Positions 31,315-59,857 of a stretch of 64,000 nucleotides of DNA are shown here, piece by piece (position 1 is the first letter of the stretch; every line of letters begins with the position of its first letter). Under the pieces are notes generated by a model. It searched no databases. It worked only from the letters and a program-made list of their open reading frames with translations, and was not told the DNA's origin. Origin of the DNA: Amaricoccus solimangrovi (GTDB lineage Bacteria; Pseudomonadota; Alphaproteobacteria; Rhodobacterales; Rhodobacteraceae); contig NZ_VFRP01000006.1 of assembly GCF_006385685.1 (NCBI RefSeq), positions 1 to 64,000 of the forward strand, given 5' to 3'. The translations under genes were made by a program, and so were the position numbers.

Positions 31315-31339
31315 GGAACATTCCGCCGGCCCGCCGGTT
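31315..31339 (+). promoter_or_regulatory. EcfG-type promoter upstream of the FdhF/YdeP-type gene
   Basis: GGAAC (31315-31319), 17-bp spacer, GTT (31337-31339) followed by CGC; 110 bp before the ATG at 31449. Matches the alphaproteobacterial general-stress sigma factor consensus. Confidence 0.6.
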
Positions 31340-31448
31340 CGCATCCGAGGGCGCGAGAAGGCGGTCGGGAGGAGTTCCATGACGAAGGCGGCCGCCTTCG
31401 ACGGGTTCCGGGCGCCGCCCCCGATCCGCCGAGCGAAGGAGGCATGCG

Positions 31449-33746
31449 ATGAAGACGAAGGATCTGCCCGAGGAATCGGGGCCGGCCGGCGGATGGGGGT
31501 CGCTGCGCGGTCTCGCCAGGATTTACGGCGCGGCCGACAGCGAGATCGCCGCGCTCGACACGCTGCGGCGGCAGAACAAGCCCCACGGGTTCATGTGCAT
31601 GTCCTGCGCCTGGCCGAAGCCCGCGAACTACCACGCGTTCGAATTCTGCGAGAACGGCGCGAAGATGACGCTGTGGGAACTCACCACCCACCGCTGCCGG
31701 CCCGAGTTCTTCGAGGGGCACACGGTGGAGGAACTGCGCGGCTGGAAGGATCACGACCTCGAGGCGGAGGGGCGGCTGACCGCGCCGATGCGCTACGACG
31801 CGGCGACCGACCGCTACGTGGAGACGGGCTGGGAGGAGGCCTTCGCCGAGATCGGCGCGACGCTCCGACGGCTCGATCACGAATCCGTCGTCTTCTACGC
31901 CTCCGGCCACGCCGGCCTCGAAGCCTCCTATCTCTATGCCCTGCTCGCGCGACTCTACGGCTGCAACAACCTGCCGCAGAGCTCCAACATGTGCCACGAG
32001 ACGACCAGCGTCGGCCTGAAGCGGGTGATCGGCTCCCCGGTCGGCACGATCGTCTGGGAGGATCTCGAACAGACCGACCTCCTCATGTTCTTCGGCCAGA
32101 ACCCCGGGACCTGCTCGCCGCGGTTCCTGCATCCGATGAAGGCGGTCAAGGATCGGGGCGGCCACATCATCAGCTTCAATCCGATGCGCGAACAGGGGCT
32201 TGTCTCCTTTATCGATCCCCAGGACATGACGGCGATGCTGACCGGCAAGGAGACGGTGATCTCCGACCAGTACCACCAGGTCCGGGCCGGCGGCGACGTC
32301 GCGGCGCTGGCCGGGCTCTGCAAGGCGGTGCTCGAGGCCGACGACGCTGCCCGGCGGGACGGCGGCGCCCGCGTCCTCGACACCGCCTTCATCGAGGAGC
32401 ACACGACCGGGTTCGAGGACTTCGCCGCCGCGATGCGCGCGACCGGATGGGCGGAGATCGAACGCGAGTCGGCCCTGACCGAGGAGGCGCTGCGCGCGGC
32501 GGCGGCGATGTACCTCTCCACCGACAAGGTGATCGCCGCCTACGGGATGGGTCTGACGCAGCAGGCGGGCGGATGGCTCAACATCGCGATGCTGACGAAT
32601 TTGATGCTGCTGCGCGGCAACGTCGGGCGCCCCGGCGCCGGCATCACGCCGGTCCGCGGTCATTCGAACGTGCAGGGCCAGCGCACCGTCGGCATCGCCG
32701 AGAAGACGAAGCTCGTTCCGATGGACAAGCTCCGCGAGTTGTTCGGCTTCGAGCCGCCGGAGAAGGACGGCACGCATATCGTCGACGCGGTCAAGGGACT
32801 GGCGGAAGGCTCGGTCAGGGCGACGATCAGCCTCGGCGGCAATCTGGTGCGCGCGGTCCCGGACCGGAACCTGATGGAAGCCTGCTGGCCGCGGCAGGAG
32901 CTGACCGTGATGGTCTCGACGAAGCTCAACCGCTCCCATCTCTTCCCGGGCAAGGTCGCCTACATCCTGCCCTGCCTCAGCCGGGCCGAGGAGGACGTGC
33001 AGGAAGGCGGACCGCAAGCGGTGAGCATCGAGGAAAGCTTCGCGATGATCCACGGCTCCACCGGCCACCGGGAGCCGGCGTCGGACAGGCTCATGAGCGA
33101 ACTCGCCATCGTCGCCGGGATCGCGAAGGCGACGCTCGAACCCAATCCGAAGGTGAAATGGGACGATTGGACCGCCGATTACGGCAAGGTCCGCGACCTG
33201 ATCGAGGAGACCTACCCCGACGATTTCAAGGGATTCAACGAACGGCTCTTCGAGCCGGGAGGCTTCCACCGCGACATCGGCGCGCACCGCCGCGAGTGGA
33301 GGACCGAGAGCGGCAAGGCGGTGTTCACGACGCCGGAGCGGCTGAATTCGCTCGATTTCGACGACGCGCCGGGGCGCTACCGGCTGGTGACGGTGCGCTC
33401 GAACGATCAGTTCAACACGACGATCTACGGCTATTCGGACCGGTTCCGGGGCATCGAGGGCACGCGCGACGTGATCCTGATGAGCGAGGCGGACATCGCG
33501 GAGGCGGGCCTTCACCGCGATCAGCGCGTCACGCTCGTCTGCGATTTCGACGATGGGGAGGACCGGCGGCTCGGCGGACTCGCGGTGATCCCCTACGACC
33601 TGCCGAGGGGCACCATCGTATCCTACTTCCCCGAATGCAACGTCCTCATCCCGCTCTCCCACCACGACGAGCTCTCGAAGACGCCGGCGAGCAAGGCCGT
33701 GCCGGTCCGGATCGAGGCCGAGGGGGTGGCGGCGCGGGAGCCCTGA
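31449..33746 (+). CDS. FdhF/YdeP-family molybdopterin oxidoreductase
   Basis: 765 residues. N-terminal Cys motif HGFMCMSCAWPKP (Cys50, Cys53) and Cys67, typical of the YdeP branch; then molybdopterin-binding domains (FYASGHAGLEASYLYALLARLYG; NMCHETTS; GHSNVQGQRTVG) and the C-terminal MopB domain (TVRSNDQFNTTIYGYSDRFRG). YdeP proteins are linked to acid resistance in E. coli, but their reaction is not settled. Strong AAGGAGG 6 nt before the ATG. An EcfG-like promoter upstream suggests stress control. Confidence 0.87.
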   Translation: MKTKDLPEESGPAGGWGSLRGLARIYGAADSEIAALDTLRRQNKPHGFMCMSCAWPKPANYHAFEFCENGAKMTLWELTTHRCRPEFFEGHTVEELRGWKDHDLEAEGRLTAPMRYDAATDRYVETGWEEAFAEIGATLRRLDHESVVFYASGHAGLEASYLYALLARLYGCNNLPQSSNMCHETTSVGLKRVIGSPVGTIVWEDLEQTDLLMFFGQNPGTCSPRFLHPMKAVKDRGGHIISFNPMREQGLVSFIDPQDMTAMLTGKETVISDQYHQVRAGGDVAALAGLCKAVLEADDAARRDGGARVLDTAFIEEHTTGFEDFAAAMRATGWAEIERESALTEEALRAAAAMYLSTDKVIAAYGMGLTQQAGGWLNIAMLTNLMLLRGNVGRPGAGITPVRGHSNVQGQRTVGIAEKTKLVPMDKLRELFGFEPPEKDGTHIVDAVKGLAEGSVRATISLGGNLVRAVPDRNLMEACWPRQELTVMVSTKLNRSHLFPGKVAYILPCLSRAEEDVQEGGPQAVSIEESFAMIHGSTGHREPASDRLMSELAIVAGIAKATLEPNPKVKWDDWTADYGKVRDLIEETYPDDFKGFNERLFEPGGFHRDIGAHRREWRTESGKAVFTTPERLNSLDFDDAPGRYRLVTVRSNDQFNTTIYGYSDRFRGIEGTRDVILMSEADIAEAGLHRDQRVTLVCDFDDGEDRRLGGLAVIPYDLPRGTIVSYFPECNVLIPLSHHDELSKTPASKAVPVRIEAEGVAAREP

Positions 33747-33763
33747 CCGGGATCCGGCGCGCG

Positions 33764-33788
33764 GGAACCGGGCGCCGGGACTGGCGTT
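33764..33788 (+). promoter_or_regulatory. EcfG-type promoter upstream of topoisomerase IB
   Basis: GGAAC (33764-33768), 17-bp spacer, GTT (33786-33788) followed by GGGG; 45 bp before the start at 33834. Confidence 0.6.
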
Positions 33789-33833
33789 GGGGCGGACGGC
33801 GTTCACTTCCATGGCGCGGGGACGGATGTCGCG

Positions 33834-34790
33834 ATGATGCCCGGCGGCCTGATCTATTATCCCGACTCGATGCCCGGCATCGCCCGCAAGCGCAGCGGGC
33901 GCGGCTTCAGCTATGTCGCTCCGGACGGGACGACCATCGCCCGCGGGGCGGAGCGGCGCCGGCTGGAGGCGATGGCGATCCCGCCGGCCTACGAAGACGT
34001 CTGGATGACGCCGAAGCCGAACGGCCATCTGATGGCCACCGGCTACGACGCGCGCCGGCGCAAGCAGTACCGCTACCATCCCGACTGGGCGCTGGCCCGG
34101 GCCGAGACCAAGTACGAAAGCCTCGCGGGCTTCGGTCATGCGCTGCCGGTGATCCGCGCGGGCATCGCCCATGACCTGCGCGCGCGCACGGGAAGCGAGC
34201 GTTTCGCGCTCGCCGCCGCCGCGCTCCTCATCGACGAGCTTGCCGTCCGGGTGGGGACCGCGAGCTACGCGGCCGAGAACAACACCTATGGCGCCACGAC
34301 GCTGAGGCGACGGCATCTGCGACTCGTCGGCGGGGCGCTGCGGCTCTCCTGGGTCGCCAAGGGAGGCAAACGGGTGACGCGCACGATCAGGGACCGCCGC
34401 CTGATGCGCGCGCTCACGCGCGCCCGTGACCTGCCCGGGACGCTGCTCTTCACCTGGATCGACGACGAGGGCGAGGTCCGGCCGATCACGTCGCAGGGGC
34501 TCAACGCCTATCTCGCCGATCTGGGCGAGGGACCCTTCACTTCGAAGGTGTTCCGGACCTGGTCGGGCACCCTCGCCGCTTTCGAGGCCCATCGCGAGAA
34601 CCCCTCCGCCGGCATCGGGGCGCTCGCCGCCGCCGCCGCCGAACGGCTCGGCAACACGCCCGCGGTGGCGCGCGAGAGCTACATTCATCCGAAGGTGCTC
34701 GATCTCGTCGGCGCCGAACCCGCCGCCTTGCCCGCGCCGCTCGAGGGGCTCTCCCCCGCGGAGACCGGGCTGCTCGCGCTGCTCGACTGA
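33834..34790 (+). CDS. DNA topoisomerase IB (eukaryote/poxvirus type)
   Basis: 318 residues. Relaxes supercoils through a 3'-phosphotyrosine link. Visible catalytic residues: the Arg of LAVRVG (Arg139), a Lys in the VAKGGKR beta-hairpin, the Arg of KVFRTWSGT (about 241) and the nucleophile Tyr283 in ARESYIHPKV. The N-terminal part (YVAPDGTTI, IPPAYEDVWM, QYRYHP) is characteristic of bacterial IB enzymes. Tandem ATG codons at 33834 and 33837. Bacterial IB topoisomerases are accessory, and this one sits in the stress island. Confidence 0.92.
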   Translation: MMPGGLIYYPDSMPGIARKRSGRGFSYVAPDGTTIARGAERRRLEAMAIPPAYEDVWMTPKPNGHLMATGYDARRRKQYRYHPDWALARAETKYESLAGFGHALPVIRAGIAHDLRARTGSERFALAAAALLIDELAVRVGTASYAAENNTYGATTLRRRHLRLVGGALRLSWVAKGGKRVTRTIRDRRLMRALTRARDLPGTLLFTWIDDEGEVRPITSQGLNAYLADLGEGPFTSKVFRTWSGTLAAFEAHRENPSAGIGALAAAAAERLGNTPAVARESYIHPKVLDLVGAEPAALPAPLEGLSPAETGLLALLD

Positions 34791-34798
34791 GCCCGCGA

Positions 34799-35422
34799 CT
34801 ATTCGGCGACCGGAGCCTCGCTTCTCGCGTCCAGATCCGCGAGGGCGACGATCTCGACATGCAGGCGGAACCGGCGCCGGAAGAGATCGAGCGTCGCGTC
34901 ATGCGCCTCGTCGGAGGAGGAGCAGAGCCCGTCCCTGGCCAGGAGAACCCGGTACCCCCTGTCGACCGCGCCGAGCACGGTGGAGAGAACGCACATGTCC
35001 GTCTCGCCCCCGGTGACGACGAGCGTCCGGCACCCGCGCGCGCGTAACCGGTCGTCGAGATCGGTCTCCACCCAGGGGGAGTAGACGTGCTTGTCGATCA
35101 CCTCGGCGTCAGCGGCGGCGCGTTCCAGTTCCGGGATGAGATCGACCATGCCGGGGGCGAGCCGGTCGAGCGTCATCGCATCCCACTTCTCGTAATAGGC
35201 CTGCCACGTGCCCTCGCCGTCCGAGGCCCGGCGGAGCGGGATGAATCGGGTGAAGATCGCGCGGCCCGGGTGCCGCTCGCAGAAGGCGGCCACGCGCGGC
35301 GCGATCCGGGGCATCCAGTCCAGCCCCCAGTCCGTGCCCGGCCAGAACAGCCGCTGCATGTCCACGCAGAGGTGGACCCAGTCGGTTCCGCGGGGAGGAT
35401 CGCCGTTCTCGTCGAGTGCCAT
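34799..35422 (-). CDS. Cysteine hydrolase of the isochorismatase family
   Basis: 207 residues. The Asp-Lys-Cys triad is visible: CVDMQ near residue 19 (Asp), DKHVYSPW (Lys) and GGETDMCV (Cys). The start at 35422 (MALDENGDP) has GGAGG 7 nt upstream. The family includes nicotinamidases and N-carbamoyl hydrolases; the substrate is unknown. It lies 74 bp downstream of the BON/SWFGD gene on the same strand and may be cotranscribed with it. Confidence 0.83.
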   Translation of the reverse strand: MALDENGDPPRGTDWVHLCVDMQRLFWPGTDWGLDWMPRIAPRVAAFCERHPGRAIFTRFIPLRRASDGEGTWQAYYEKWDAMTLDRLAPGMVDLIPELERAAADAEVIDKHVYSPWVETDLDDRLRARGCRTLVVTGGETDMCVLSTVLGAVDRGYRVLLARDGLCSSSDEAHDATLDLFRRRFRLHVEIVALADLDARSEAPVAE

Positions 35423-35496
35423 GTCGCGGCCTCCATTCCTTCGCAGCATCGTGCGTGCGAGCCGGCCCCGGACGAGGGGGCCGGACGCTTCCCGGC

Positions 35497-36348: not shown

Positions 36349-36403
36349 TGGAGTTCCTCCTTCTCGAGCGGTGATCCCGGCCTTGGGATCCGCTCCCCCG
36401 CCC

Positions 36404-36428
36404 AACAGGAAGGGCTGGGCAATGTTCC
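36404..36428 (-). promoter_or_regulatory. EcfG-type promoter upstream of the BON/SWFGD gene
   Basis: On the minus strand, GGAAC (36428-36424), 17-bp spacer, GTT (36406-36404) followed by GGG; 56 bp before the ATG. Confidence 0.6.
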
Positions 36429-36485: not shown

Positions 36486-36510
36486 TGAACCCGCCGGTGA
36501 GTCGGGCGTT
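36486..36510 (+). promoter_or_regulatory. Variant EcfG-type promoter or operator upstream of ybdK-like gene
   Basis: TGAAC (one mismatch to GGAAC), 17-bp spacer, GTT; 28 bp before the ATG. The same site is also an inverted repeat, ATTGAAC/GTTCAAT, so a repressor operator is an alternative reading. Confidence 0.35.
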
Positions 36511-37685: not shown

Positions 37686-37711
37686 GGAACAAAGCCGATC
37701 GGCGAGCGGTT
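37686..37711 (+). promoter_or_regulatory. EcfG-type promoter upstream of the FUSC gene
   Basis: GGAAC (37686-37690), 18-bp spacer, GTT (37709-37711); 54 bp before the ATG. Confidence 0.5.
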
Positions 37712-39638: not shown

Positions 39639-39664
39639 GGAACAACCGGCGGGTTCCGCCGGTT
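39639..39664 (+). promoter_or_regulatory. EcfG-type promoter upstream of the alpha/beta hydrolase
   Basis: GGAAC (39639-39643), 18-bp spacer, GTT (39662-39664); 32 bp before the ATG at 39697. Confidence 0.5.
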
Positions 39665-42079: not shown

Positions 42080-42451
42080 ATGCCGGATCTGTTGCGCGGG
42101 CGGACGGTGCTTGTCGTGGAAGACGAATACTACCTGGCCGACGATCTGCGGCGCGGTCTCGAGGCGGCGGGCGCCGTGGTGCTCGGCCCGGCGGCGTCGC
42201 TGGCCGACGGGCTGCGGCTGATCGGCGACGGTCGGTCGCCGGATCTCGCGGTGCTCGACGTCAATCTGCGCGATGTGACCGTCTATGAACTCGCCGAGGC
42301 GCTGATGGCGCGGGGCATCCCCTTCGTCTTCGCCACCGGCTACGACGCGGCACGTATTCCGGAGCGTTTCGAGGCGGTCCCGAAGCTGCTGAAGCCGTTC
42401 GAGATGGGCGCGCTGACCGCGGCGCTCGAGGCGCTCGCGGCGCGGGGCTGA
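42080..42451 (+). CDS. Single-domain response regulator
   Basis: 123 residues: one receiver domain and no output domain. Acid pocket EDE (residues 14-16), phospho-acceptor Asp60 in AVLDVN, switch residues FATGYD and Lys105 in LLKPF. Such stand-alone receivers often serve HWE kinases as phosphate sinks or intermediates. It is 138 bp upstream of a large HWE kinase on the same strand, its likely partner. Confidence 0.88.
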   Translation: MPDLLRGRTVLVVEDEYYLADDLRRGLEAAGAVVLGPAASLADGLRLIGDGRSPDLAVLDVNLRDVTVYELAEALMARGIPFVFATGYDAARIPERFEAVPKLLKPFEMGALTAALEALAARG

Positions 42452-42589: not shown

Positions 42590-45500
42590 ATGCGGGACGA
42601 AGGTCATGAGGGCTGGCTGGGCGGGGGCGGCGACACGGGCGCCCGCGTCCGCGCGCGCGACTGGGCATCGACCTCGCTCGGGCCGATCACATGCTGGCCC
42701 GCGAGCCTGCGGACGGCCCTGACGCTCGTCCTCGACCATCCGCTGCCGATGGCGCTCGCCTGGGGGCCGGAACTCGTCACCTTTCCCAATGACGCCTGCG
42801 CCGCGCTCCCGGGCGGGCCCGGCGATGTTCTCGGCCGGCCCTTCCCCGAGGGATGGGGCGCGGCGCGGCGCGGGCTCGCGTCCCGGATCGCCGGGGCGCT
42901 CGACGGGGCGGCGGCGCGGTTCGACGGCGCCTCGGCGGGGCTCGCCTTCGACCATTGCCTCAGTCCGGTCCGCGACGCCACCGGCGCGGTCGTGGGGATC
43001 ATCGACACGCTCACCCCGGCGCTCGCACCGGAGCGCGCCCGCTTCGTCCCGCCGGGCGCCGGCGAGGAGCGCGAGACGTTCCTGCTGAGGCTCAGCGATG
43101 CGCTGCGCCCGCTGACGGAGGCGGTGGAAGTTCTCGATGTCGCGATGCGGCTCCTGGCCGGACAGCTCGACGTGATGGGCGCGACCTGCCTCGAGATCGA
43201 CGCCGACGAGGACGGCTTCGCGCTGATCGCCAGTCACGAGCGGTCGCCGGCGCGCGCTTCGGCGCCGACGCGTCTCTCCGCCTTCGCGCCCGACATGGCG
43301 GAGGCATACCGCGCCGGATCCACGCTCAGTTGCCGCGACACGGAACTCGAGCCGGAGCGGGACGCGTATCGCGCGGTCGGGATCCGGGCCTGGGTCGGCG
43401 TGCCGCTCGTCAAGCAGGGGCGACTGCTCGCGATCGTCGGCGTCCATTCGCGCGAGCCGCGCGACTGGACGCGGGAGGAGGTCCGGCTTCTGGAGGACGT
43501 GGCCGAGCGGGCCTGGGCGGCGGTGGAGCGCGCCCGCGCCGAGGCGGCGCTGGCCGCCAGCGAGGGCCGGTATCGCTCGTTCTTCGAGACGATGCGCCAG
43601 GGCTATGACGAGTGCGAGATGATCCGCGACGCCACCGGCCGACCGGTCGACTACCGCGTCCTCGACGTCAATCCGGCCTTCGAGCGGCTGCTCGGCATGA
43701 CGGCGGGCGAGTTGCGCGGCAGGCGCGCGTCGGAGGTCATGCCCGATTTCGAGGAGTGGTGGCCCGCGGAGATCGACCGGATCCTCGCCACCGGCGCGCC
43801 CGGCCGGGTCGGGCGCGAGGTTCCCGCCTTCGACCGCTTCTACGAGGTGACCATCTATCCCCGTGGCGGGGATCGCTTCGCCGCGGTCTGCGACGACATC
43901 ACCGAACGTCGGCGGGTCGAGCTGGTCCGGCGCGAGAACGAGGCGCGGCAGGTGTTCCTGCTCAGGCTCAGCGACGCGCTCCGGCCGCTCGGCGATCCGG
44001 GCGAGATCCAGGAGACGGCCTGCAGGATCATGGCCGAGCAGGTGGGCGCCGAGTGGGTGGGTTGCGCGGAGGCGTGCGGCGGTGACCAGACCATCGGGCG
44101 ACAGTTCCCCGCGGCGGGTCCGGGCGCGACGGGAGGATGGTTCGGGCGCGACCCTTTCCGGTCCGCGGATCGAGACGCGGGCGACACCGGATCCGGTATC
44201 GCGCCCGCCCATTCCACGAGCGATGGCCGGTCCTTCGTCGCGGTGCCGCTGGTCAAGGCGGAGGATCTGGTCGTGGTCTTCGGAGCGCGGCGCGCGCGGC
44301 CGAGCGGCTGGACCCCGGCCGAGGTCTCGCTGATCGAGGAGGCCGCCGACCGCGCCTGGGCCGCGGTCGAGCGGGCCCGGGCCGAGGTCGCGCGCCGCGC
44401 GAGCGAGGAGCGCTACCGCACGCTCTTCGAGTCGATCGATCAGGGTTTCTGCGTCATCGAGGTGCTTTTCGACGAAGCGGGCGCGCCGGTGGACTACCTC
44501 TTCCTGGAAGCCAATCCGGCCTTCGAGAGCAAGACCGGACTGGTCGAGGCCGAGGGCAAGCGGATGCGCGCGCTGGCGCCCGGGCACGAGCAGTTCTGGT
44601 TCGACACCTATGGCCGCGTGGCCCGGACCGGCCATCCCGAACGTTTCCAGCATCGCGCGGAGGCGCTGGGACGCTGGTACGACGTCTATGCCCTGCGCCT
44701 GGGGCCGGCGGAGGAGAACCGCGTCGCGATCCTCTTCGACGACATCACCGAGCGCCGCCGCGCCGAGACGGCCCTGCGCGAGAGCGAGGAGCGGCAGGCC
44801 TTCCTGCTGAAGCTCAGCGACACGCTGCGCCCGATCGCCGATCCGGTGGAGATCCAGGCGCGGGCCATGCGCGTGCTGGGCGAGCATCTCGGGGTGACCC
44901 GGGCGCAGTATTACGAGGCCGACCCGTCGGCGACGTATCTCGACTCACAGGGGGGCTACGCGGATGGGGCGCCGCCGGTGGTCGGCCGGTTCCGCATCGA
45001 CGACTTCGGGCAGCACGTCACGGAGGCCTACCGCGCCGGCCGCACGCTCGCCGTCGGGGATGTGACGGCGGAGGCGCGGTTCGGCGCGGAGGAACTGGGG
45101 GCCTACGCGGCGCTGGGGATCGGCGCCTATCTCGGCGTGCCGGTGATGAAGGCCGGGCGCCTCGCGGGGATCGTCGGCCTGCATCAGGCCGCCAAGCGCG
45201 ACTGGACCCCGGCCGAGGTCGCGCTCGTCGAGGAGACGGCCGACCGCACCTGGGCGGCGGTCGAGCGCGCCCGGACGGAGGCCGCGCTCCGCGAGAGCGA
45301 GGAACGGTTCCGGCAGTTCGGCGAGGCGTCGCGGGACGTGCTCTGGATCCGCGACGCCGAGACGCTGCAATGGCAGTACCTCACCCCCGCCTTCGAGGAG
45401 ATCTACGGGCTGAGCCGCGAGGAGGCGCTGGCCAACGACAACTATCGGAGCTGGATGGATCTGATCGTGCCCGAGGACCGCGCGCGCGCGGCCGACAGCG

Positions 45501-46666
45501 TCAGGAGCATCCGGCGCGGCGCGCATGTGACTTTCGACTACCGCATCCGGCGCCCCAGCGACCGGGCGATCCGCTGGCTGCGGAACACGGACTTTCCGAT
45601 CGCCGATGCGAGCGGCCAGGTCATCATGGTCGGCGGCATCGGCCATGACCTGACCGAGCTGCGCGAGACCGAGCTTCGCCTGCAGACGCTGATCGAGGGG
45701 ATGCCGCAGCTCGTCTGGCGCGCGGTGGGTGGGGGAACCTGGACCTGGGCGAGCCCGCAATGGTTCGAATACACCGGCCAGAGCGCGGCCGAAAGCCTCG
45801 GCTGGGGCTGGCTCGAGGCGCTCTATCCCCCCGATCGCGAGACCGCGCGGGAAGCCTGGGCGCACGCGCTCGAGACCGGGGGGTTCGAGGTCGAATACCG
45901 GCTGCGAAGAGGCGAGGGTTTCCGCTGGTTCAAGACCCGCGCCACCGCGGTCCGCGACGGGACCGGCGCGATCATCGAATGGCTCGGCACCTCGACGGAC
46001 ATCCACGAACTGCGCGAGCTGCAGGAGCGCCAGCGGATCCTCGTCGCGGAACTCCAGCACCGCACGCGCAACCTGATGGCGGTCGTCCGCTCGATGGCGG
46101 ATCGCACGGGCGACGGCAGCCAGGATCTGGACGACTTCCTCCAGCGCTTCCGCGCCCGGCTCGAGGCGCTCGCGCGGGTTCAGGGCCTGCTGTCGCGGCT
46201 GGGAGAGACCGACCGCGTCGCCTTCGACGAACTTCTCGGTACCGAGATCGAGGCGATGCCCGGCGCCGGCGGCCAGGTCATTCTCGAGGGGCCGCGGGGG
46301 ATCCGCCTGCGCTCCAGCATGGCGCAGATGCTCGCGATGGCGCTGCACGAACTGGCGACGAACGCGATGAAATACGGCGCCCTGAGCCAGCCGCGGGCGG
46401 TGCTCGCGGTCCGCTGGAGTGCGCGGCGGTCCGACGGGGAGAACCGCCCCTGGCTCGATATCGAGTGGCGGGAGAGCGGGGTCAGGATGCCGCCGGCCGA
46501 CAGGGTTCTCGCGGAGACCGGCCAGGGCCGGGAACTGATCGAGCGGGCGCTACCCTACCAGTTCGGCGCGAAGACCACCTTCGCGCTCGAAGAGGACGGC
46601 GTCCATTGCACCATCTCCATCCCCGTCTCGGCGAGCGGCGAGAGCGCGGCGGGCTCGGCGGCCTGA
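42590..46666 (+). CDS. Large soluble HWE-family sensor histidine kinase with tandem PAS and GAF domains
   Basis: 1358 residues, no membrane segment. Order: N-terminal PAS-like module with the ASTSLGP motif (1-145), GAF (165-320), PAS (325-440), GAF (455-600), PAS (605-722), GAF (740-895), PAS (903-1025), PAS (1028-1140), then the HWE kinase core: phospho-acceptor His1157 in LVAELQHRTRN, N-box HELATNAMKYGAL (1253-1265) and the WRE motif near 1293. The GAF units start with near-identical FLLRLSDALRP-like helices, showing internal duplication. HWE kinases commonly feed the PhyR/EcfG general stress pathway. The start is not backed by a strong ribosome site. Confidence 0.88.
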   Translation: MRDEGHEGWLGGGGDTGARVRARDWASTSLGPITCWPASLRTALTLVLDHPLPMALAWGPELVTFPNDACAALPGGPGDVLGRPFPEGWGAARRGLASRIAGALDGAAARFDGASAGLAFDHCLSPVRDATGAVVGIIDTLTPALAPERARFVPPGAGEERETFLLRLSDALRPLTEAVEVLDVAMRLLAGQLDVMGATCLEIDADEDGFALIASHERSPARASAPTRLSAFAPDMAEAYRAGSTLSCRDTELEPERDAYRAVGIRAWVGVPLVKQGRLLAIVGVHSREPRDWTREEVRLLEDVAERAWAAVERARAEAALAASEGRYRSFFETMRQGYDECEMIRDATGRPVDYRVLDVNPAFERLLGMTAGELRGRRASEVMPDFEEWWPAEIDRILATGAPGRVGREVPAFDRFYEVTIYPRGGDRFAAVCDDITERRRVELVRRENEARQVFLLRLSDALRPLGDPGEIQETACRIMAEQVGAEWVGCAEACGGDQTIGRQFPAAGPGATGGWFGRDPFRSADRDAGDTGSGIAPAHSTSDGRSFVAVPLVKAEDLVVVFGARRARPSGWTPAEVSLIEEAADRAWAAVERARAEVARRASEERYRTLFESIDQGFCVIEVLFDEAGAPVDYLFLEANPAFESKTGLVEAEGKRMRALAPGHEQFWFDTYGRVARTGHPERFQHRAEALGRWYDVYALRLGPAEENRVAILFDDITERRRAETALRESEERQAFLLKLSDTLRPIADPVEIQARAMRVLGEHLGVTRAQYYEADPSATYLDSQGGYADGAPPVVGRFRIDDFGQHVTEAYRAGRTLAVGDVTAEARFGAEELGAYAALGIGAYLGVPVMKAGRLAGIVGLHQAAKRDWTPAEVALVEETADRTWAAVERARTEAALRESEERFRQFGEASRDVLWIRDAETLQWQYLTPAFEEIYGLSREEALANDNYRSWMDLIVPEDRARAADSVRSIRRGAHVTFDYRIRRPSDRAIRWLRNTDFPIADASGQVIMVGGIGHDLTELRETELRLQTLIEGMPQLVWRAVGGGTWTWASPQWFEYTGQSAAESLGWGWLEALYPPDRETAREAWAHALETGGFEVEYRLRRGEGFRWFKTRATAVRDGTGAIIEWLGTSTDIHELRELQERQRILVAELQHRTRNLMAVVRSMADRTGDGSQDLDDFLQRFRARLEALARVQGLLSRLGETDRVAFDELLGTEIEAMPGAGGQVILEGPRGIRLRSSMAQMLAMALHELATNAMKYGALSQPRAVLAVRWSARRSDGENRPWLDIEWRESGVRMPPADRVLAETGQGRELIERALPYQFGAKTTFALEEDGVHCTISIPVSASGESAAGSAA

Positions 46667-46688: not shown

Positions 46689-46859
46689 TCAGCGCGGCGG
46701 GCCGAGCCAGAACGGGGCGGTCGCCCGGCGCAGCGCCTCCTCGAGTTCCTCGGCGACCGCCGCCAGGCCCGCCGGAACCGGTTCGGCCTCGATGGCCGCG
46801 CGCGCCCGCGCGAGGGCCGCGTCCACGCGCCCGTCGGCGCCGGTCTCGTCTTCCCTCAC
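46689..46859 (-). CDS. Small protein, NepR-like anti-sigma candidate
   Basis: 56 residues from GTG 46859, with GGAGG 7 nt upstream, which makes a real gene likely. The segment from Val12 (VDAALARARAAI) through EAEPVPAG to AEELEEAL aligns without gaps to the helix-EPVP-helix core of NepR, the anti-sigma factor that holds EcfG in the general stress response. The usual aromatic and acidic contact residues are mostly Ala here, so this is a weak match. It is convergent with the HWE kinase, 22 bp away. Confidence 0.5.
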   Translation of the reverse strand: MREDETGADGRVDAALARARAAIEAEPVPAGLAAVAEELEEALRRATAPFWLGPPR

Positions 46860-47124
46860 CTTGTCGCCTCCGCGTCTCCTGGCCCGAGCGGCCCATGTCG
46901 GTCCCCGCGTCACGTTTCCCTCCTCCGGGAAGCGGGACGCCACCTGGCCGGCCTCGCTCTCTCCAGGGCGGGACAGCGCCGGGCGTCTGCGGGACAAACC
47001 GGGCATGCCCGGCTTTTGTTCGGGCGAAGTCTCGGAAATGGCCCTCGCTGGGCAGGCGTCGCGGCGCGGCGGAACAAATCCGGTTGGCCCCTGTTGGGCA
47101 ACGAACGCGACAAGGGAGAACATC
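46860..47124. other. Divergent intergenic region between the small NepR-like gene and sodC
   Basis: 265 bp with no supported gene. It carries the sodC promoter candidate (47071-47095). No EcfG-like site was seen in the minus direction. Confidence 0.6.
47071..47095 (+). promoter_or_regulatory. EcfG-type promoter upstream of sodC
   Basis: GGAAC (47071-47075), 17-bp spacer, GTT (47093-47095) followed by GGG; 29 bp before the ATG. Confidence 0.6.
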
Positions 47125-48973: not shown

Positions 48974-50050
48974 CTGGCGAAGGAGGAGACAGGCTGGCTC
49001 GGCGCCTCGACGGCGGCGGCGCGCATCCGGGAGGCGGAGTGGGCGGGGACGCCGCTCGGTCCGCCCGGCGGCTGGTCGTCCTCGCTGCGCTCCGCGCTCG
49101 CCGTCACGCTCGGGATCGGCTTTCCCGCCTTCCTCTGGTGGGGACCGCGATTCCTCGCCTTCCGCAACGACGCCGCCGGACGGCTGTTCGGCCTGGAGGG
49201 ACTCGGGCAGCCGGGAGGGCCGCTCTGGGACGCGCTCGGCGGCTCGATCCGGGGCGCGGCGGGAAGCGGCGCGACCGTCGTGACGGCCGCGGCCGCGCAG
49301 GCGGATCTCGTCGTCTCCCTCAGCCGTCCCTGGCCGGCGAGGGGATCGGATGACGGGCCGGGCGTGCTCGCGGTGGCCCATCCCGAACACGCGCCGGAAG
49401 CGGAACTGCTGGCGGCGCGAAGCGAGATCGCCGCGCTCCAGTCGCGGCTCGACGAGGCGCGGCGGGCCAGCCGCGACACGCTCGCCATCATCCGCTCGAT
49501 CGCCCGGCGCACCGGCGTGGGCGCGCGTTCGGCCGCTGATTACGCGGATCATCTCGACGGGCGCATCACCGCGCTGGCGCGCGTGCAGACCGCGCTCGCG
49601 CGCCATCCCGAGATGGGGGTCGATCTCGCGCTTCTGGCCGGGGACACGCTGATGGCGGCGGGCGCGCACGAGACGCGGGAATTCACCCTCGATGGGCCGG
49701 AGGTCCTGCTCAGGGGCAAGCACGCGGAGACGCTCGGCCTGGCCCTGCACGAGCTCACGACCAACGCGGTCAAGTTTGGCGCGCTGTCGCGCCGGGGCGG
49801 GCGGATCGCGATCGACTGGCGTGTGGACCGGAGCGACCCGGCGCGGCCGGTCCTGGCGTTGCACTGGACCGAGACCGGCGCCGCGCTGACCAACGGCGCC
49901 GGCCCCCCCGGCTTCGGCTCCGAGCTCTTCGAGCGGAGCATGAACTACGAGATGGACGCGGACGTGCGTTGGCGGCTGGGGCCCGAGGGGCTCGTCTGGA
50001 ACATGCGCGCCCCGCTGCCCGAGGCGGGCGGCGAAGCCGGCGGGGCCTGA
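48974..50050 (+). CDS. HWE-type kinase homologue lacking the phospho-acceptor histidine; non-canonical start likely
   Basis: About 358 residues. The N-terminal module (WAGTPLGPPGGW, FLWWGPRFLAFRND) matches that of the large HWE kinase. The dimerisation helix reads EARRASRDTLAIIRSIARRT, so the position of the catalytic His is Arg164 and the following Asn is Asp168. The ATPase region remains, with N-box HELTTNAVKFGAL (259-271) and WTE (298-300). No ATG, GTG or TTG exists in frame after 48704; CTG 48974, 9 nt after GGGGAG, is the best start given the domain boundary. It probably acts as a pseudokinase or ATP-binding regulator. Confidence 0.72.
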   Translation: MAKEETGWLGASTAAARIREAEWAGTPLGPPGGWSSSLRSALAVTLGIGFPAFLWWGPRFLAFRNDAAGRLFGLEGLGQPGGPLWDALGGSIRGAAGSGATVVTAAAAQADLVVSLSRPWPARGSDDGPGVLAVAHPEHAPEAELLAARSEIAALQSRLDEARRASRDTLAIIRSIARRTGVGARSAADYADHLDGRITALARVQTALARHPEMGVDLALLAGDTLMAAGAHETREFTLDGPEVLLRGKHAETLGLALHELTTNAVKFGALSRRGGRIAIDWRVDRSDPARPVLALHWTETGAALTNGAGPPGFGSELFERSMNYEMDADVRWRLGPEGLVWNMRAPLPEAGGEAGGA

Positions 50051-50101: not shown

Positions 50102-50126
50102 GGAACATCCGGCCCGCTCGGCTGTT
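50102..50126 (+). promoter_or_regulatory. EcfG-type promoter upstream of the DUF2231 operon
   Basis: GGAAC (50102-50106), 17-bp spacer, GTT (50124-50126) followed by CC; 35 bp before the GTG start at 50162. Confidence 0.6.
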
Positions 50127-50161: not shown

Positions 50162-50653
50162 GTGCGACGAACCCAAGCAAGGCCGATCCCCACCGCGGCG
50201 CGCGGTCTGGCCGCGCCCTCCGCCTTCGCGGTGGCGGGCCATCCGGTCCACGCGGCGCTGGTGCCCTTTCCCATCGTCTGCTTCTCGCTCGTCATCCTGA
50301 CCGACCTCGCCTATTGGCGGACGGCCAATCTGATGTGGCAGAACTTCTCCTCCTGGCTTCTTTTCGCGGGCCTCGTCGGCGGGGTGCTCGCGGCGGTGGC
50401 GGGGGCGATCGACCTGCTGGCGCGCGCCACGCTGCGCCGCCACTCCGCCGCCTGGGCGCACGGGCTCGGCAATCTCGCGGTCCTGGTGCTCGCCTTCTTC
50501 AACAGCCTCGTCCACGCGGGCGACGGCTGGACCGCCGTGGTTCCCGTCGGATTGACGCTGTCGCTCGTGACCGGGGTCGTGATGATCTTCACCGTCTGGC
50601 TTGGCCGCGCGATGGTCTATCGCGCGGGGATCGGAGTGCGCATCCATGACTGA
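50162..50653 (+). CDS. DUF2231-family membrane protein
   Basis: 163 residues from GTG 50162, with AGGAGG upstream. Four membrane helices with the GHPVHAALVPFPI motif that opens DUF2231 proteins. These often sit beside sorbosone dehydrogenase-type genes and may hold a redox or electron-transfer site in the inner membrane. It overlaps the next gene by 8 nt, which supports a shared function. Confidence 0.83.
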   Translation: MRRTQARPIPTAARGLAAPSAFAVAGHPVHAALVPFPIVCFSLVILTDLAYWRTANLMWQNFSSWLLFAGLVGGVLAAVAGAIDLLARATLRRHSAAWAHGLGNLAVLVLAFFNSLVHAGDGWTAVVPVGLTLSLVTGVVMIFTVWLGRAMVYRAGIGVRIHD

Positions 50654-52136
50654 GCAATCCTTCCGCGCCCCTCCCCCCTTCCTCCGTCTCGCCTCGGCGG
50701 CGCTTCTGGTCTGCGCCGCGAGTCCCGCGCTCGCGCAGGAGGATTTCGACATCACGAGCCAGATCGGCCCCGATCCGGTCCTGCCCGATCCCGATCCCGG
50801 GCTGATCGCCGGGATGAAGGTCGCGGAGGTCGTGGGCTGGGCGGAAGGCGAGACGCCCGAGGTGGCGGAGGGCTTGACGGTAAGCGTTTATGCGAAGGAT
50901 CTCGTCAATCCCCGCACGGTCTACACGCTGCCGAATGGCGACGTGCTCGTGGTCCAGTCGCGCGGTCCGACCGAGCCCGTCTCGCGCCCGAAGGACGTGA
51001 TCCGGGGCGCGATCATGTCCTACGCCCACGGGCAGGGCGCCGGAGGGTCGGAGAAGGAGAGCAACCGGGTAACGCTCCTGCGCGACACCGACCGGGACGG
51101 CGTTGTGGACGAGCGCGCCGAGCTGCTGACCGGGCTCAACTCCCCCTTCGGCGTGGTCTGGACCGACGGCACGCTCTACGTCGCCGCGACCGATGCGATC
51201 CTCGCCTATCCCTATGAACTCGGCCAGACCGGGATCACCGAGGCGCCGAAGGTGCTGGCGCCGCTCCCGGGCGGGCCGATCGACCATCACTGGACCAAGG
51301 ATCTGGCCCTGAGTCCCGACGGGACGAAGCTCTTCGCCTCGATCGGCTCCAATTCCAACGTCGGCGAGAACGGGCTCGAGGCGGAGAAGGGCCGGGCCGC
51401 GATCTGGGAGGTGGACCGCGCGAGCGGCGCCGCCCGGGTCTTCGCCTCGGGCCTGCGCAATCCCAACGGACTGACCTTCCATCCCGAGACTGGAGACCTC
51501 TGGGCGGTGGTGAACGAGCGCGACGAACTCGGGCCGAACCTCGTGCCCGACTACATGACCTCGGTGAAGGAGGGGGCGTTCTACGGCTGGCCCTGGAGCT
51601 ACTACGGCCAGCATGTCGATCCGCGCGTCCATCCGCCCCGGCCGGACATGGTCGAGCAGGCCATCGCGCCCGACTACGCGCTGTCGAGCCATGTGGCGCC
51701 GCTCGGGATGACGTTCAGCTACGGCTCCGCCATGCCGGAGGAATTCGCGAGCGGCGCCTTCGTCGGCGAGCATGGCAGCTGGAACCGGACGGATTTCAAT
51801 GGCTACAAGGTCGTCTATGTGCCCTTCGAGAACGGCCAGCCCTCCGGCAAGGCGCGCGACGTCGTAACCGGCTTCCTCGACGGGGACCAGACGCGCGGGC
51901 GGCCCGTGGGGGTGGCGATCGACGGGACTGGGGCGCTTCTCGTCGCCGACGACGCGGGCAATACGGTCTGGCGCGTCGCCGCGGCCGATGGCCGGATCAT
52001 CGACGCGCCGGTCGGCACCGACCAGCACGCGGCGCGGGCGCGCACCGCCCCCGAGCCGCCGGCGACGGACGCGGGCACGCCCGCGCAGCTCCGGATCGCG
52101 CCGGCGACCGGGGAGCCGACGGAGCCCGCTCCGTGA
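50646..52136 (+). CDS. PQQ-dependent sorbosone/aldose dehydrogenase-like protein (second paralogue)
   Basis: 496 residues from ATG 50646. A Sec signal peptide (about 1-30, ending ALAQ) leads to the same propeller family as the gene at 40545 ([57 protein letters not shown]). A Pro/Ala-rich C-terminal tail of about 40 residues is absent from the paralogue. It is coupled to DUF2231 before it and to the P450 gene after it by overlaps. Confidence 0.85.
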   Translation: MTEQSFRAPPPFLRLASAALLVCAASPALAQEDFDITSQIGPDPVLPDPDPGLIAGMKVAEVVGWAEGETPEVAEGLTVSVYAKDLVNPRTVYTLPNGDVLVVQSRGPTEPVSRPKDVIRGAIMSYAHGQGAGGSEKESNRVTLLRDTDRDGVVDERAELLTGLNSPFGVVWTDGTLYVAATDAILAYPYELGQTGITEAPKVLAPLPGGPIDHHWTKDLALSPDGTKLFASIGSNSNVGENGLEAEKGRAAIWEVDRASGAARVFASGLRNPNGLTFHPETGDLWAVVNERDELGPNLVPDYMTSVKEGAFYGWPWSYYGQHVDPRVHPPRPDMVEQAIAPDYALSSHVAPLGMTFSYGSAMPEEFASGAFVGEHGSWNRTDFNGYKVVYVPFENGQPSGKARDVVTGFLDGDQTRGRPVGVAIDGTGALLVADDAGNTVWRVAAADGRIIDAPVGTDQHAARARTAPEPPATDAGTPAQLRIAPATGEPTEPAP

Positions 52137-53398
52137 GGACAGCCGGAAAGGCGGAAGCCGGCGCGCCCTTTCCACGCGCCGAATTCGACGGCACGCTGGG
52201 CCTCATGCGCGAGGGATACCGGTTCATCGGCCGCCGCTGCGACCGGGCGGGGCGGGACGGATTCCACACCCGCCTGATGCTGCGCGATGTCCTCTGCCTG
52301 CGCGGTGCCGAGGCCGTCGACCTTCTTTACGAGAGCCCGGATTTCACTCGCCGGGGTGCGATGCCGGGCTGGGTGCTGCGCCTGCTGCAGGACAAGGGCA
52401 GCGTGCAGCAGCTGGAGGGGGCCGAGCACCGGGCGCGGAAGGCGCTCTTCACGCGGCTTCTGATCGAGTCCGACGCGGATGCGACGCTGGCGCGTATCTT
52501 CGGCGCGGCGCTGCTGGAACGGATCGGGCGTGGCGGGCGCGTCAATGTGCTGCGCGACACGGTCGCGCCTCTCTCTCGCGCGGCCTGCGACTGGTGCGGC
52601 CTCGGGGCCGATTTCGCCGGGGATCGCGCTCTCGCGGCGGCGCTGTTCGAGATGAGCGACCGCGCGGGCTTCCCGGGGCCGGGAAGCTGGGCCGCGCTGG
52701 CCCGGCGGCGCCGCGTGGAAGCCCGGCTCGCGGCGGCGGTTCGCGAGTGGCGGCGCGCCGGTCCCCCGGAGGCGGCGAGCCCGCTCGCGGATTTCTGCCG
52801 CGCCACCGGGGAGCGTGGCCGGCCCCTGCCTCCCGAAACCGTCGCGGTGGAACTCCTCAACCTGCTCCGCCCGATCGTGGCGGTGGGACGCTATGTCGCC
52901 TTCGCCGCGCGCCTCCTGATCCTCCGGCCCGACTGGCGCGAACGGCTCCGCGCGGCGGAGGAGGCGGAGTTCGACCGCTTCGCCGAGGAGATCCGCCGGA
53001 TCTCCCCCTTCTTTCCCTTCGTCGGGGCCATCTCTGAACGGCCGGTCCACTGGCGGGGCGAGACGCTGGACAAGGGCCAGTGGGTGATCGCCGATCTGCA
53101 CGGGACCTGCCATGACGCGCGCCGCTTCCCCGATCCCGACGCGTTCCTGCCCGGGCGGCGCCTCGACTGGCGTCATCCCGCGCCCGGCTTCGTTCCGCAG
53201 GGCGCGGGAGATCCGGCGCGGACGCATCGCTGTCCGGGTGAGAAGGTGACGGTCGCGCTGATCGCGGAGGCGACGCGGATCCTCACCCGGGGGCCGGCCT
53301 GGACCGCGCCGGAGCAGGATCTCGGCATCGACCTCGCGCGGATCCCGGCGCGTCCGGCGAGCGGGGTCGAGCTCGATTTCGGCCCCGCGCGCGGCTGA
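52133..53398 (+). CDS. Cytochrome P450, CYP152-like fatty-acid peroxygenase
   Basis: 421 residues from GTG 52133 in a GTGA overlap. Haem Cys367 in THRCPGEK, ExxR at 285-288, and ISPFFPF after it. The usual acid-alcohol pair of the I helix is replaced by Arg246-Pro247 (LLRPIVAV), the mark of CYP152 peroxygenases, which use hydrogen peroxide directly on fatty acids. The substrate-pocket position occupied by His in OleT decarboxylases and Gln in the Bacillus subtilis hydroxylase is Gln92 here (GSVQQLEG), favouring hydroxylation. No redox partner is encoded nearby, as expected. Confidence 0.84.
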   Translation: MRTAGKAEAGAPFPRAEFDGTLGLMREGYRFIGRRCDRAGRDGFHTRLMLRDVLCLRGAEAVDLLYESPDFTRRGAMPGWVLRLLQDKGSVQQLEGAEHRARKALFTRLLIESDADATLARIFGAALLERIGRGGRVNVLRDTVAPLSRAACDWCGLGADFAGDRALAAALFEMSDRAGFPGPGSWAALARRRRVEARLAAAVREWRRAGPPEAASPLADFCRATGERGRPLPPETVAVELLNLLRPIVAVGRYVAFAARLLILRPDWRERLRAAEEAEFDRFAEEIRRISPFFPFVGAISERPVHWRGETLDKGQWVIADLHGTCHDARRFPDPDAFLPGRRLDWRHPAPGFVPQGAGDPARTHRCPGEKVTVALIAEATRILTRGPAWTAPEQDLGIDLARIPARPASGVELDFGPARG

Positions 53399-53400
53399 CC

Positions 53401-54450
53401 TCAGCCTTTCCCCGCCGCGCGGTAGATCGCCTCGATCGCCCGCGCGAGGTCGATGAGCCGGCGGCACGACGGGTCGAACCGCGCGCCCCGGCCGAGCGCC
53501 CGCGCCCAGGCGACCGCGGCGCGCCCGCCCCAGGCGTCCGGCGGGGAGGCGACCTCCTCGCTCGCTGTCCCCCGATGTAGCCGCGTTGCGAAGTCGTAGA
53601 ACGAGCCGTCGCGATTCTCGATCACCGCCCCGCCCTCGGCTCCGAAGGCCTCGAACCGGATCACGGCGTCCTGTCCCGCGTGGAGCCGCCAGGAGCAGGC
53701 GAGGCGGAGCGCGCGGCCCCCCGCGAGCGAGAGCGTCGCGGTCACGTAATCCTCCGCTTTCCGGCTCAGCGCCTCGGCGTCGAGCCTGCGCCCCGCGCGC
53801 CAGGCCTGGGCCTCCACGTGCTCGAGCGCGGGAAAGTCGAGAAGCCAGAGCCCGAGATCGACGAGATGCACGCCGAGATCGGCGAGGCAGCCGCCGCCCG
53901 AGAGCGCGCGGTCGTAGAACCAGGGCTTGTCGGGTCCGTAGGCGTTGTGAAACACCGCGTCCATCGCGAAGACCTCGCCCAGCCGGCCCGCCCGGAGCGC
54001 CTCGCGTAGCGCCGCGACCGCGGCGGTATGGCGATAGGAGAGGTCGACGCCGAGCAGCCGGTCGGCGTTGCCCGCGGCCTCGACGACCGCCGTCGCCTCG
54101 CGCGCGTCGCGCCCGAGCGGCTTCTGGCAGAACACGGCGGCGCCCGCTTCGAGCGCGCGGATCGATTGCCCGGCATGGAGCGCGCTCGGCGTCGCGATCA
54201 CGATCCCGTCGGGCTCCATCGCCAGCAGGCCGTCGAGCCCATCCGCCGCCCGCGCGCCGGGAGCGACGTCGGTGGCCTCGGCCAGCGCCTCCGGCACGGG
54301 ATCGGCGAGGCCGACGATTTCCGCGGATCCGTCCTCCGCGACGGCGCGAAGCCGGTGGCGCCCGATCCAGCCGAGGCCGAGGAAGGCGAGCCGGGGCCGC
54401 CGCGCGACCGGCGCGCCAGCGGCGTCGAAGGGATGGGGGGTCAGTCGCAT
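53401..54450 (-). CDS. Gfo/Idh/MocA-family NAD(P)-dependent oxidoreductase
   Basis: 349 residues from ATG 54450. Rossmann motif FLGLGWIG near residue 24, the catalytic-type CQKPLGRD (Lys-Pro) and a C-terminal substrate domain (FHNAYGPDKPWFYDRALSGGGCLADLGVHLVDLG). The family oxidises or reduces sugars and cyclitols. Its start lies 10 nt inside the end of the alcohol-dehydrogenase-type gene, so the two are coupled. Convergent with the P450 gene. Confidence 0.87.
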   Translation of the reverse strand: MRLTPHPFDAAGAPVARRPRLAFLGLGWIGRHRLRAVAEDGSAEIVGLADPVPEALAEATDVAPGARAADGLDGLLAMEPDGIVIATPSALHAGQSIRALEAGAAVFCQKPLGRDAREATAVVEAAGNADRLLGVDLSYRHTAAVAALREALRAGRLGEVFAMDAVFHNAYGPDKPWFYDRALSGGGCLADLGVHLVDLGLWLLDFPALEHVEAQAWRAGRRLDAEALSRKAEDYVTATLSLAGGRALRLACSWRLHAGQDAVIRFEAFGAEGGAVIENRDGSFYDFATRLHRGTASEEVASPPDAWGGRAAVAWARALGRGARFDPSCRRLIDLARAIEAIYRAAGKG

Positions 54451-55442
54451 CGGACATAGGCCTTCACGAGCGCCCCCGGCCGATCGCGCTGCGCGTCGAG
54501 CGCGGCGTCGAGCCGGTCGAGCGGGAAAGCATCCGTGACGAGGGCGCGAGGATCGAGGAGCCCGTCCCGCGCGGCCTGGACCGCCTCGCGCAGGCCGCGC
54601 AGATAGACCTTCGGATCGCGCTCGTGAGCGTTGATCACGTCGATCCCGCGCCAGTTCCAGCTTTGCATGTCGACGCTCCTCGGCCCGTCCTGGTGGTAGC
54701 CGGCGATGACGAGCCGCCCGCCGGTCGCGACGAGGCCCGAGGCGAGGTCGAGCGCGGATTGGTTGCCGACGCATTCGATCGCGACGTCGCAGAAACGGTG
54801 TCCGGTCAGCCGCCCCACGGTCTCATGCGCCTCCGCGTCGAACCGCGCCACGTGTTCGGCGCCCATCTCGCGCGCGAGGCCGAGCGCCGCGTCGCGCCGG
54901 GAGACGCCAATCACGCGGGCGCCGGCGGCCGCGGCGAGCCGGGTCAGCGCCGCGCCGATGAAGCCGACGCCGACGACCGCGACCCAGTCGCCCGCCGTGA
55001 TCCCGGCGCGGCGGAAGATGTTCATCGCGCAGGCGAAGGCCTCGCCCGGGAAGGGCATCCCGTCGAGTTCCGGCGGCAGCGGGACGACGGCCTCCGCCGC
55101 GACGAGCTGATGCGTCGCGAAACCGTTCTGGCCCAGCGTCGCCACGCGCTGTCCGAGCTCGAGGCCCGCCACGCCGGGGCCGAGCGCGGCGATCCGGCCC
55201 CAGGCCTCGTGCCCGAGCCCGCCGGGTTCGGTCGGAAACCGCATCCACTCCGGTCCCGACCAGGGGACGAGGTTCGAGGCGCAGACGCCGCAGCCTTCGA
55301 GGCGCACCAGAACCTCCCCGGGGCCGGGGCTCGGACAGGGCAGGGTCTCGATCCGCGCGCGTCCGGGCGCGTCGATCACCGCCGCGCGCATCTCTTCCGC
55401 CGCGACTTCCGCGGGGCGTTCCGCGATCTCGAATGCTTCCAT
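54441..55442 (-). CDS. Zinc-type medium-chain alcohol/polyol dehydrogenase (MDR)
   Basis: 333 residues from ATG 55442, with GGAGGG 6 nt upstream. N-terminal GroES-like domain (GCGVCASNLVPWSG, GGLGHEAWG) and the Rossmann fold (VGVGFIGAALTRLAAAAGARVIGVS). Catalytic zinc ligands Cys (GVCAS) and His-Glu (GHE) are present, but the four-cysteine structural zinc loop is missing. Likely sugar or polyol oxidation upstream of the Gfo/Idh partner. Divergent from the glycan operon. Confidence 0.87.
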   Translation of the reverse strand: MEAFEIAERPAEVAAEEMRAAVIDAPGRARIETLPCPSPGPGEVLVRLEGCGVCASNLVPWSGPEWMRFPTEPGGLGHEAWGRIAALGPGVAGLELGQRVATLGQNGFATHQLVAAEAVVPLPPELDGMPFPGEAFACAMNIFRRAGITAGDWVAVVGVGFIGAALTRLAAAAGARVIGVSRRDAALGLAREMGAEHVARFDAEAHETVGRLTGHRFCDVAIECVGNQSALDLASGLVATGGRLVIAGYHQDGPRSVDMQSWNWRGIDVINAHERDPKVYLRGLREAVQAARDGLLDPRALVTDAFPLDRLDAALDAQRDRPGALVKAYVRCD

Positions 55443-55467
55443 ATCGGGCCCTCCTGTTCCACCGCCG

Positions 55468-55492
55468 AACAGGACGCGCGGGGCATTGTTCC
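55468..55492 (-). promoter_or_regulatory. EcfG-type promoter upstream of the MDR-Gfo operon
   Basis: On the minus strand, GGAAC (55492-55488), 17-bp spacer, GTT (55470-55468) followed by CGG; 25 bp before the ATG. Confidence 0.6.
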
Positions 55493-55605
55493 GCCCCTGC
55501 CGGGGGTTGATGAAGATGTCGTTGATATCATTGAAGAAGATGCGGGGGCGTGAAGTAGATCCACCAAGGGATTGGCGTGGATCGGGATTTTCTCCCGGCG
55601 GCTTC

Positions 55606-55630
55606 GGAACATTCCGCGCCACCGCCTGTT
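55606..55630 (+). promoter_or_regulatory. EcfG-type promoter upstream of the glycan operon
   Basis: GGAAC (55606-55610), 17-bp spacer, GTT (55628-55630) followed by CGG, the same six bases as in the divergent promoter at 55468; 31 bp before the ATG. Confidence 0.6.
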
Positions 55631-59856: not shown

Positions 59857-59857
59857 C

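Follow-up and report, generated by a model that had tools for sequence, protein, structure and literature searches.

The window analysed here is a stretch of 64,000 nucleotides, positions 1–64,000 of a 190,623-base contig (C93; NZ_VFRP01000006.1) in the 4.86-Mb genome of Amaricoccus solimangrovi. The evidence supports the presence of a plasmid-borne island of stress and envelope genes, which begins in the window and in which many genes are preceded by a promoter match of the type read by the general stress sigma factor EcfG. We consider it likely that the island is the regulon of a non-canonical EcfG paralogue of the EcfG2/RpoE5 subgroup, whose gene (ecfG2) lies inside the island, and that this paralogue would act through a variant of the promoter. 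The contig is taken as a plasmid or chromid; ParA, ParB and a Rep3 initiator are encoded at 16–20 kb. Gene calls are from our own script, and no annotation was used.

The original prediction of an EcfG-type promoter cluster beside this Rep3/ParAB replicon is upheld by counts, spacing, orientation, position and footprints in other genera. Its EcfG reading holds as well, with the amendment that the plasmid EcfG2-type sigma is the likely driver, either in place of the chromosomal EcfG or alongside it; the motif belongs to the proposed GGAAC/GTT general-stress type, in a variant of the usual form.

Predicted promoter sites and the extent of the island

Ten exact GGAAC-N17-GTT matches occur in the window against 0.56 expected, and none of 100 shuffles reaches ten. 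They comprise the sites marked as exact N17 in Table 1 that lie in the window, together with 9024, 20041 (minus strand) and 50104 (minus strand); 9024 and 20041 are within genes, and 50104 is the palindromic partner of 50102. Eight of the ten lie outside genes, while noncoding DNA makes up 8.4% of the bases (p ~1e-7). Over the whole contig, 21 of 25 N17 places are outside genes, against 7.6% noncoding (p ~3e-20), three palindromic partners being counted separately in the 25. Such palindromic pairs were considered as a special feature and are treated as chance, because a CC after the GTT is enough to make one. The spacing is equally restricted: the contig sites outside genes number 21 at N17, two at N18, and two at N14, N15, N16, N19 and N20 together. 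A comparison of coding with upstream positions over the replicon had been put forward as the check on the cluster, and these counts bear the cluster out.

The sites are also concentrated along the contig, with 21 of the 25 N17 places falling in 31.3–82.4 kb. Genome-wide, GGAAC-N17-GTT occurs 139 times compared with 30 for a reversed control, and 21 of the 139 matches sit in this 51-kb interval (p ~3e-18). The cluster continues past 55.6 kb, where the earlier view of it stopped, to 82.4 kb, which roughly doubles the length first assigned to the island. All ten coordinates originally listed carry a site as described, including the two with a spacer of 18 (37686 and 39639) and the single TGAAC-N17-GTT at 36486. 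The distance from site to predicted start is 25–109 bp, close to the 26–110 bp first given, except for the BON gene, where it is 169 bp and the start is uncertain. The statement that no site lies left of 31 kb requires qualification: apart from the two in-gene N17 matches above, a lone GGAAC-N16-GTT (CGTT) stands at 19220–19243 on the plus strand, 158 bp upstream of the gene for the Rep3 initiator, at chance level for N16.

The plasmid sigma factor and its proposed promoter variant

The ecfG2 product is a 177-residue extracytoplasmic function (ECF) sigma factor, matched by Sigma70_r2, Sigma70_r4_2 and PhyR_sigma2 and with no match to a receiver domain. It is 42% identical to the chromosomal EcfG of the same genome and 54–64% identical to the best 80 of at least 566 relatives, mostly from Mesorhizobium and Rhizobium; its best solved relative was crystallised with NepR (5uxx). 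A quick tree (LG+G4, 92 rows) was built with every second ecfG2 row omitted and drew a long-branch warning from the program. In it the sigma clusters with one gene from R. etli p42f and one from S. meliloti pSymB, apart from the sigmas of canonical loci (support of 99 in the Shimodaira-Hasegawa-like approximate likelihood ratio test, SH-aLRT). These two genes were assigned by position and clade: RHE_RS26680 of p42f was taken as PF00052 (EcfG2), the old tag being absent from the record, and the pSymB gene of S. meliloti strain R14 as RpoE5 (SMb21484). Two positions of region 2 separate the groups. Position 65 is A in 22/22 canonical rows and S in 85/87 EcfG2-type rows, and position 71 is L in 22/22 and M in 86/87, respectively; these differences may underlie the difference in promoters described below.

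A canonical PhyR/NepR set was sought on the plasmid by profile and was not found on the contig. The search with NepR and PhyR_sigma2 placed the canonical locus of the genome on C60 and gave two further matches, one below cut-off on C13 and one at 65,872 on C93; PF22029 found only the sigma itself on C93, and PF18557, the Pfam NepR profile, found nothing there up to E 1.

Predicted promoters around ecfG2 genes differ from the canonical type, GGAAC-N16-CGTT, mainly in the base before GTT. The ecfG2 loci counted are those of the best 80 of at least 566 confirmed relatives with a few added, a few loci being counted twice under two ids, and the set leans to Mesorhizobium and Rhizobium because it was drawn from these best relatives. 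In 83 such loci (1.77 Mb), 300 oriented intergenic sites have N17 spacing and 154 have N18 spacing, compared with 3 at N15, 4 at N16 and 4 at N19. Within the same 21 genomes (20 of 29 other genomes searched, and that of A. solimangrovi), C precedes GTT in 72/84 N17 sites in the ~10 kb around canonical ecfG and in 18/75 around ecfG2 (p=1.4e-15), and A directly follows GGAAC in 15/84 and 40/75, respectively (p=4.6e-6). With N17 and N18 sites of all fetched ecfG2 loci, near-identical sites removed and the promoters of ecfG2 itself set apart, C is found in 80/92 canonical and 92/321 ecfG2-neighbourhood sites. The promoters of ecfG2 itself carry the C in 19/23 cases (36/45 before deduplication, such sites being present in 41/86 loci). 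The A. solimangrovi genome holds 45 sites of canonical type, three of them on C93: 33764, 65763 before ecfG2, and 75988 within a gene. Among the ten exact N17 matches of the window only 33764 has the C, as does the one-mismatch site at 36486.

Ten further plasmid loci, chosen among 40 listed rows of 1203 records, served as a hold-out set for which predictions were written before the sequences were fetched. Their sites are spaced N17 in 40 cases, N18 in 8 and otherwise in 1; in the neighbourhood sites C precedes GTT in 5/44, and GGAACAW (W being A or T) is present in 32/44. Outside the hold-out, all eight N17 sites (8/8) at the locus of Paracoccus sp. MA are of the variant type. Cargo common to several hold-out loci and the island includes sodC, carboxylate-amine ligase, P450, topoisomerase IB and DUF3618/holin, as well as SRPBCC with alcohol dehydrogenase, HWE kinase with response regulator, the glycan operon and cytochrome oxidase. 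The sites also recur with their genes: 33/48 orthologue places of 11 island genes with a site have one, compared with 38/260 for 26 genes without (p ~9e-14), the sigma gene being excluded and 5 places omitted for lying too close to the end of a locus.

Close to ecfG2 lies a small open reading frame (ORF) of 73 residues with a NepR-like core, and a second such ORF, between an HWE kinase and sodC, brings the total in the island to two. An iterated profile finds a NepR-like ORF in 67/85 ecfG2 loci, on the opposite strand in 62/67 and within 5 kb in 59/67; as its iteration used the very loci counted here, the hold-out figure, 8/10 loci with one ORF 7 kb from the sigma, is cleaner. The profile gave no match in 21 canonical loci (0/21) or in 16 other stretches of the same genome (0/16). 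Among four further plasmid loci, it detected the ORF in those of S. meliloti, Mesorhizobium B2-1-8 and Paracoccus sp. MA. An hhalign comparison of the NepR-like family with canonical NepR, represented by 24 cores chosen by a loose motif, gave a probability of 91% across 31 aligned columns, whereas 20 column shuffles did not exceed 4.2%. PF18557 matches 3/5 tested relatives at E 0.0017–0.023, all below cut-off, and weak PDB matches (n = 7) include the NepR chains 5uxx_B (E 0.41) and 4qic_B (E 0.6). We regard these ORFs as a candidate anti-sigma family for EcfG2.

From the clustering of sites we infer that the plasmid sigma transcribes the GGAAC/GTT promoters. The EcfG2 holoenzyme would read GGAAC, often GGAACA[A/T], and GTT at a spacing of 17 or 18 bp, with no need for C before GTT, and would drive the superoxide dismutase, BON, YdeP-like, FUSC, dehydrogenase and glycan genes. 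The promoter match in front of ecfG2 is of the canonical CGTT type, so that this gene would be turned on by the chromosomal PhyR-NepR-EcfG response, which through this cascade probably activates the island. The NepR-like proteins encoded beside ecfG2 may hold EcfG2 inactive, and the HWE kinases could possibly release it. Only tentatively would we extend this to EcfG2-type sigmas in general, as a second, mobile layer of the alphaproteobacterial general stress response with a distinct NepR-like family, a setting in cargo islands with private promoters that have lost the C, and coupling to the chromosome through a canonical ecfG2 promoter.

Genes of the island

The features of the island are collected in Table 1. 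For the carboxylate-amine ligase, a single orthologue was found, in Paracoccus aminovorans, with an exact site. The isochorismatase-family gene has an upstream site at 13/13 orthologue places elsewhere, yet the island copy has none. The glycan operon recurs near ecfG2 in other alphaproteobacteria, including Tistrella (G028, L099, L110, L220 and L221), and similar cytochrome oxidase clusters are found near ecfG2 in Tistrella and Martelella. A match to GGAACAW-N14-DGTT (D being any base except C) at 66637–66661 on the plus strand faces kilobases without a called gene on the same strand, where a small RNA or small ORF is possible. ARAGORN found no tRNA within the window; elsewhere on the contig it gave two candidates on the minus strand, at ~149964–150059 and 171614–171710, one of them without clear identity.

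Table 1. Predicted promoter sites and genes of the island (contig numbering, identical to that of the window). Fractions give orthologue places at which a site is found.
Feature	Position	Strand	Remarks
GGAACAW-N14-DGTT match (exact N17)	31315..31339	+	before YdeP-like molybdopterin oxidoreductase (31449-33746); 4/5
GGAAC-N16-CGTT, canonical type (exact N17)	33764..33788	+	before topoisomerase IB (33834-34790); 3/9
Isochorismatase-family gene	34799-35422	-	no upstream site, one mismatch allowed
Promoter match (exact N17)	36404..36428	-	before BON-domain protein (35497-36234); 3/3
TGAAC-N17-GTT, one mismatch	36486..36510	+	before GCS2-family carboxylate-amine ligase (36538-37665)
N18 match	37686..37711	+	before FUSC-like membrane protein (37766-38863)
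N18 match	39639..39664	+	before alpha/beta hydrolase (39697-40548)
Single-domain response regulator	42080..42451	+	no upstream site, one mismatch allowed
PAS/GAF HWE histidine kinase	42590..46666	+	candidate input kinase
NepR-like ORF no. 2, 56 residues, GTG start	46689..46859	-	divergent from sodC; one-mismatch N18 site upstream
Promoter match (exact N17)	47071..47095	+	before Cu/Zn superoxide dismutase, sodC (47200-47694); 5/9
Second HWE histidine kinase	49280..50050	+	
Promoter match (exact N17)	50102..50126	+	before DUF2231 / GSDH / P450 run (50231-53398); 0/1
Promoter match (exact N17)	55468..55492	-	before zinc-type dehydrogenase (54441-55442); 2/3
Promoter match (exact N17)	55606..55630	+	before glycan operon; site 58-65 bp upstream at 4/6 places of first gene
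Glycan operon	55662..64000, onward to 64923	+	epimerases, several glycosyltransferases, methyltransferase (window part to 63212)
Site before DUF2934 gene	65240-65264	-	beyond window
Canonical-type site	65763-65787	+	33 bp before ecfG2
ecfG2	65821-66354	+	1.8 kb beyond window
NepR-like ORF no. 1, 73 residues	66284-66505	-	convergent with and overlapping ecfG2
Cytochrome oxidase cluster, CtaG and cytochrome c genes	67949-73298		no upstream site, one mismatch allowed
Further site	74465	+	beyond window
Further site	79427	-	beyond window
Further site	82124	-	beyond window

Alternative explanations and known systems

The sites might instead belong to the chromosomal EcfG regulon, in which case the boxes without C would be canonical promoters of lower strength and the plasmid sigma would add little. 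This explanation, which we hold to be unlikely, stands because the EcfG regulons of Sphingopyxis and Methylobacterium include TGTT or GGTT boxes. In the accessible parts of the respective reports, the Sphingopyxis regulon has TGTT, CATT and GGTT boxes, with both of its sigmas used in vitro and CGTT giving the most transcript, the Methylobacterium consensus is C/GGTT, and overexpression of RpoE5 in S. meliloti yielded one target (PMC6180224); all three speak for this alternative. On the other hand, within the same genomes the C is conserved in the vicinity of canonical ecfG and in most sites preceding ecfG2 itself, yet not in those of the genes neighbouring ecfG2, and many loci show clustered sites around ecfG2. 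Somewhat less probable still is that both sigmas read the island redundantly, with the base bias reflecting the history of plasmid cassettes and not sigma specificity. The three canonical-type sites on the contig and the failure of genome-wide variant counts to follow ecfG2 would agree with such redundancy, as would the R. etli EcfG1 and EcfG2 regulons, which according to the accessible text have 11 genes in common and a phyR promoter read by both; the same text states, however, that each R. etli sigma favours its own promoter (PMC3892343), and the C bias recurs in hold-out plasmids whose cargo is partly different. An artefact of chance or composition in a GC-rich plasmid would account for the few in-gene matches and for the N16 site at 19220, which is at chance level, but is opposed by the shuffle, spacing, coding/noncoding and cross-genus controls, and we regard it as extremely improbable.

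Several results weigh against an EcfG2 regulon as proposed here. In-gene matches of the ecfG2 loci have the C in 15/49, similar to the neighbourhood share given above; because of this similarity the variant in the first locus set is described as a lost requirement for C and not as a new base. The pattern GGAACAW-N14-DGTT was picked after the island sites had been seen, and its nominal p-value (~1e-20, for 12 of 17 genomic matches inside the island) is to be read accordingly. Contrary to a prediction written beforehand, counts of this pattern across 61 genomes show no separation by presence or absence of ecfG2; whole-genome counts are not diagnostic, because nine congeners without detected ecfG2 also exceed the control (53 matches vs 8). 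Hold-out clusters are dense (at least 8 sites) in 4/10 loci only, four loci having 1–3 sites and two (L212 and L216) none, and the prediction that ecfG2's own promoters carry the C did not hold there, with 2/4. Outside the hold-out, Mesorhizobium B2-1-8 (L210) has only two N17 sites, both of which lack the variant pattern, Amaricoccus macauensis (DSM 101730) has the sigma with almost no sites nearby, and G051 has few sites at N17. As to the NepR-like family, PF18557 does not match ORF no. 1 of the island at E<=10, the codon-position GC of this ORF is atypical, and the family profile finds no match on R. etli p42f. Finally, sites from related genomes are not independent of one another.

The R. 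etli paper, in its accessible part, leaves open the recognition specificity of non-canonical EcfG paralogues and the reason for the plasmid location of many of them (PMC3892343). The island and its relatives offer concrete promoters, a candidate anti-sigma family and predictions at the level of a single base (C or not before GTT); a plasmid regulon of EcfG2, if true, would account for the way in which stress genes carried by plasmids become connected to the host response. Our literature search, which covered few subscription journals, returned no EcfG2 promoter variant or NepR-like family beyond one RpoE5 ORF, and nothing on TIGR04290/TIGR04295 or on NepR combined with anti-sigma, EcfG and Paracoccus.

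R. etli EcfG2 shares with the sigma of the island its sigma clade and its location on a plasmid. In what is accessible of its description it is autoregulated and parallel to EcfG1, a motif search for it was empty, and no anti-sigma gene is reported nearby (PMC3892343). In the p42f locus, 10/11 GGAAC-N17-GTT sites at 19.4–32 kb lack the C, as in the island; the NepR-like profile finds two ORFs in the island and zero there. The ecfG2 neighbours on p42f include P450, ferritin-like, Crp and PAS proteins, and ~2.5 kb from ecfG2 there is another ECF sigma gene together with an NrsF-type partner (L209, 22082–23271). S. meliloti RpoE5 (pSymB) is of the same clade. The accessible part of its report (PMC6180224) mentions, downstream of rpoE5 and on the other strand, an RsiA-like ORF that had not been annotated, and describes no such cargo island; our profile matches an opposite-strand downstream ORF there, as here. 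Unlike in the island, 2/7 N17 sites of that locus fit GGAACAW-N14-DGTT.

Compared with the canonical PhyR-NepR-EcfG system, the island differs in the divergent sigma (42% identity), the lack of a PhyR found on the contig, promoters mostly without the C, and NepR-like ORFs that fall below the Pfam threshold. The two nevertheless share GGAAC/GTT promoters with a spacing of 17–18 bp, a small protein of NepR type, and HWE kinases encoded nearby.

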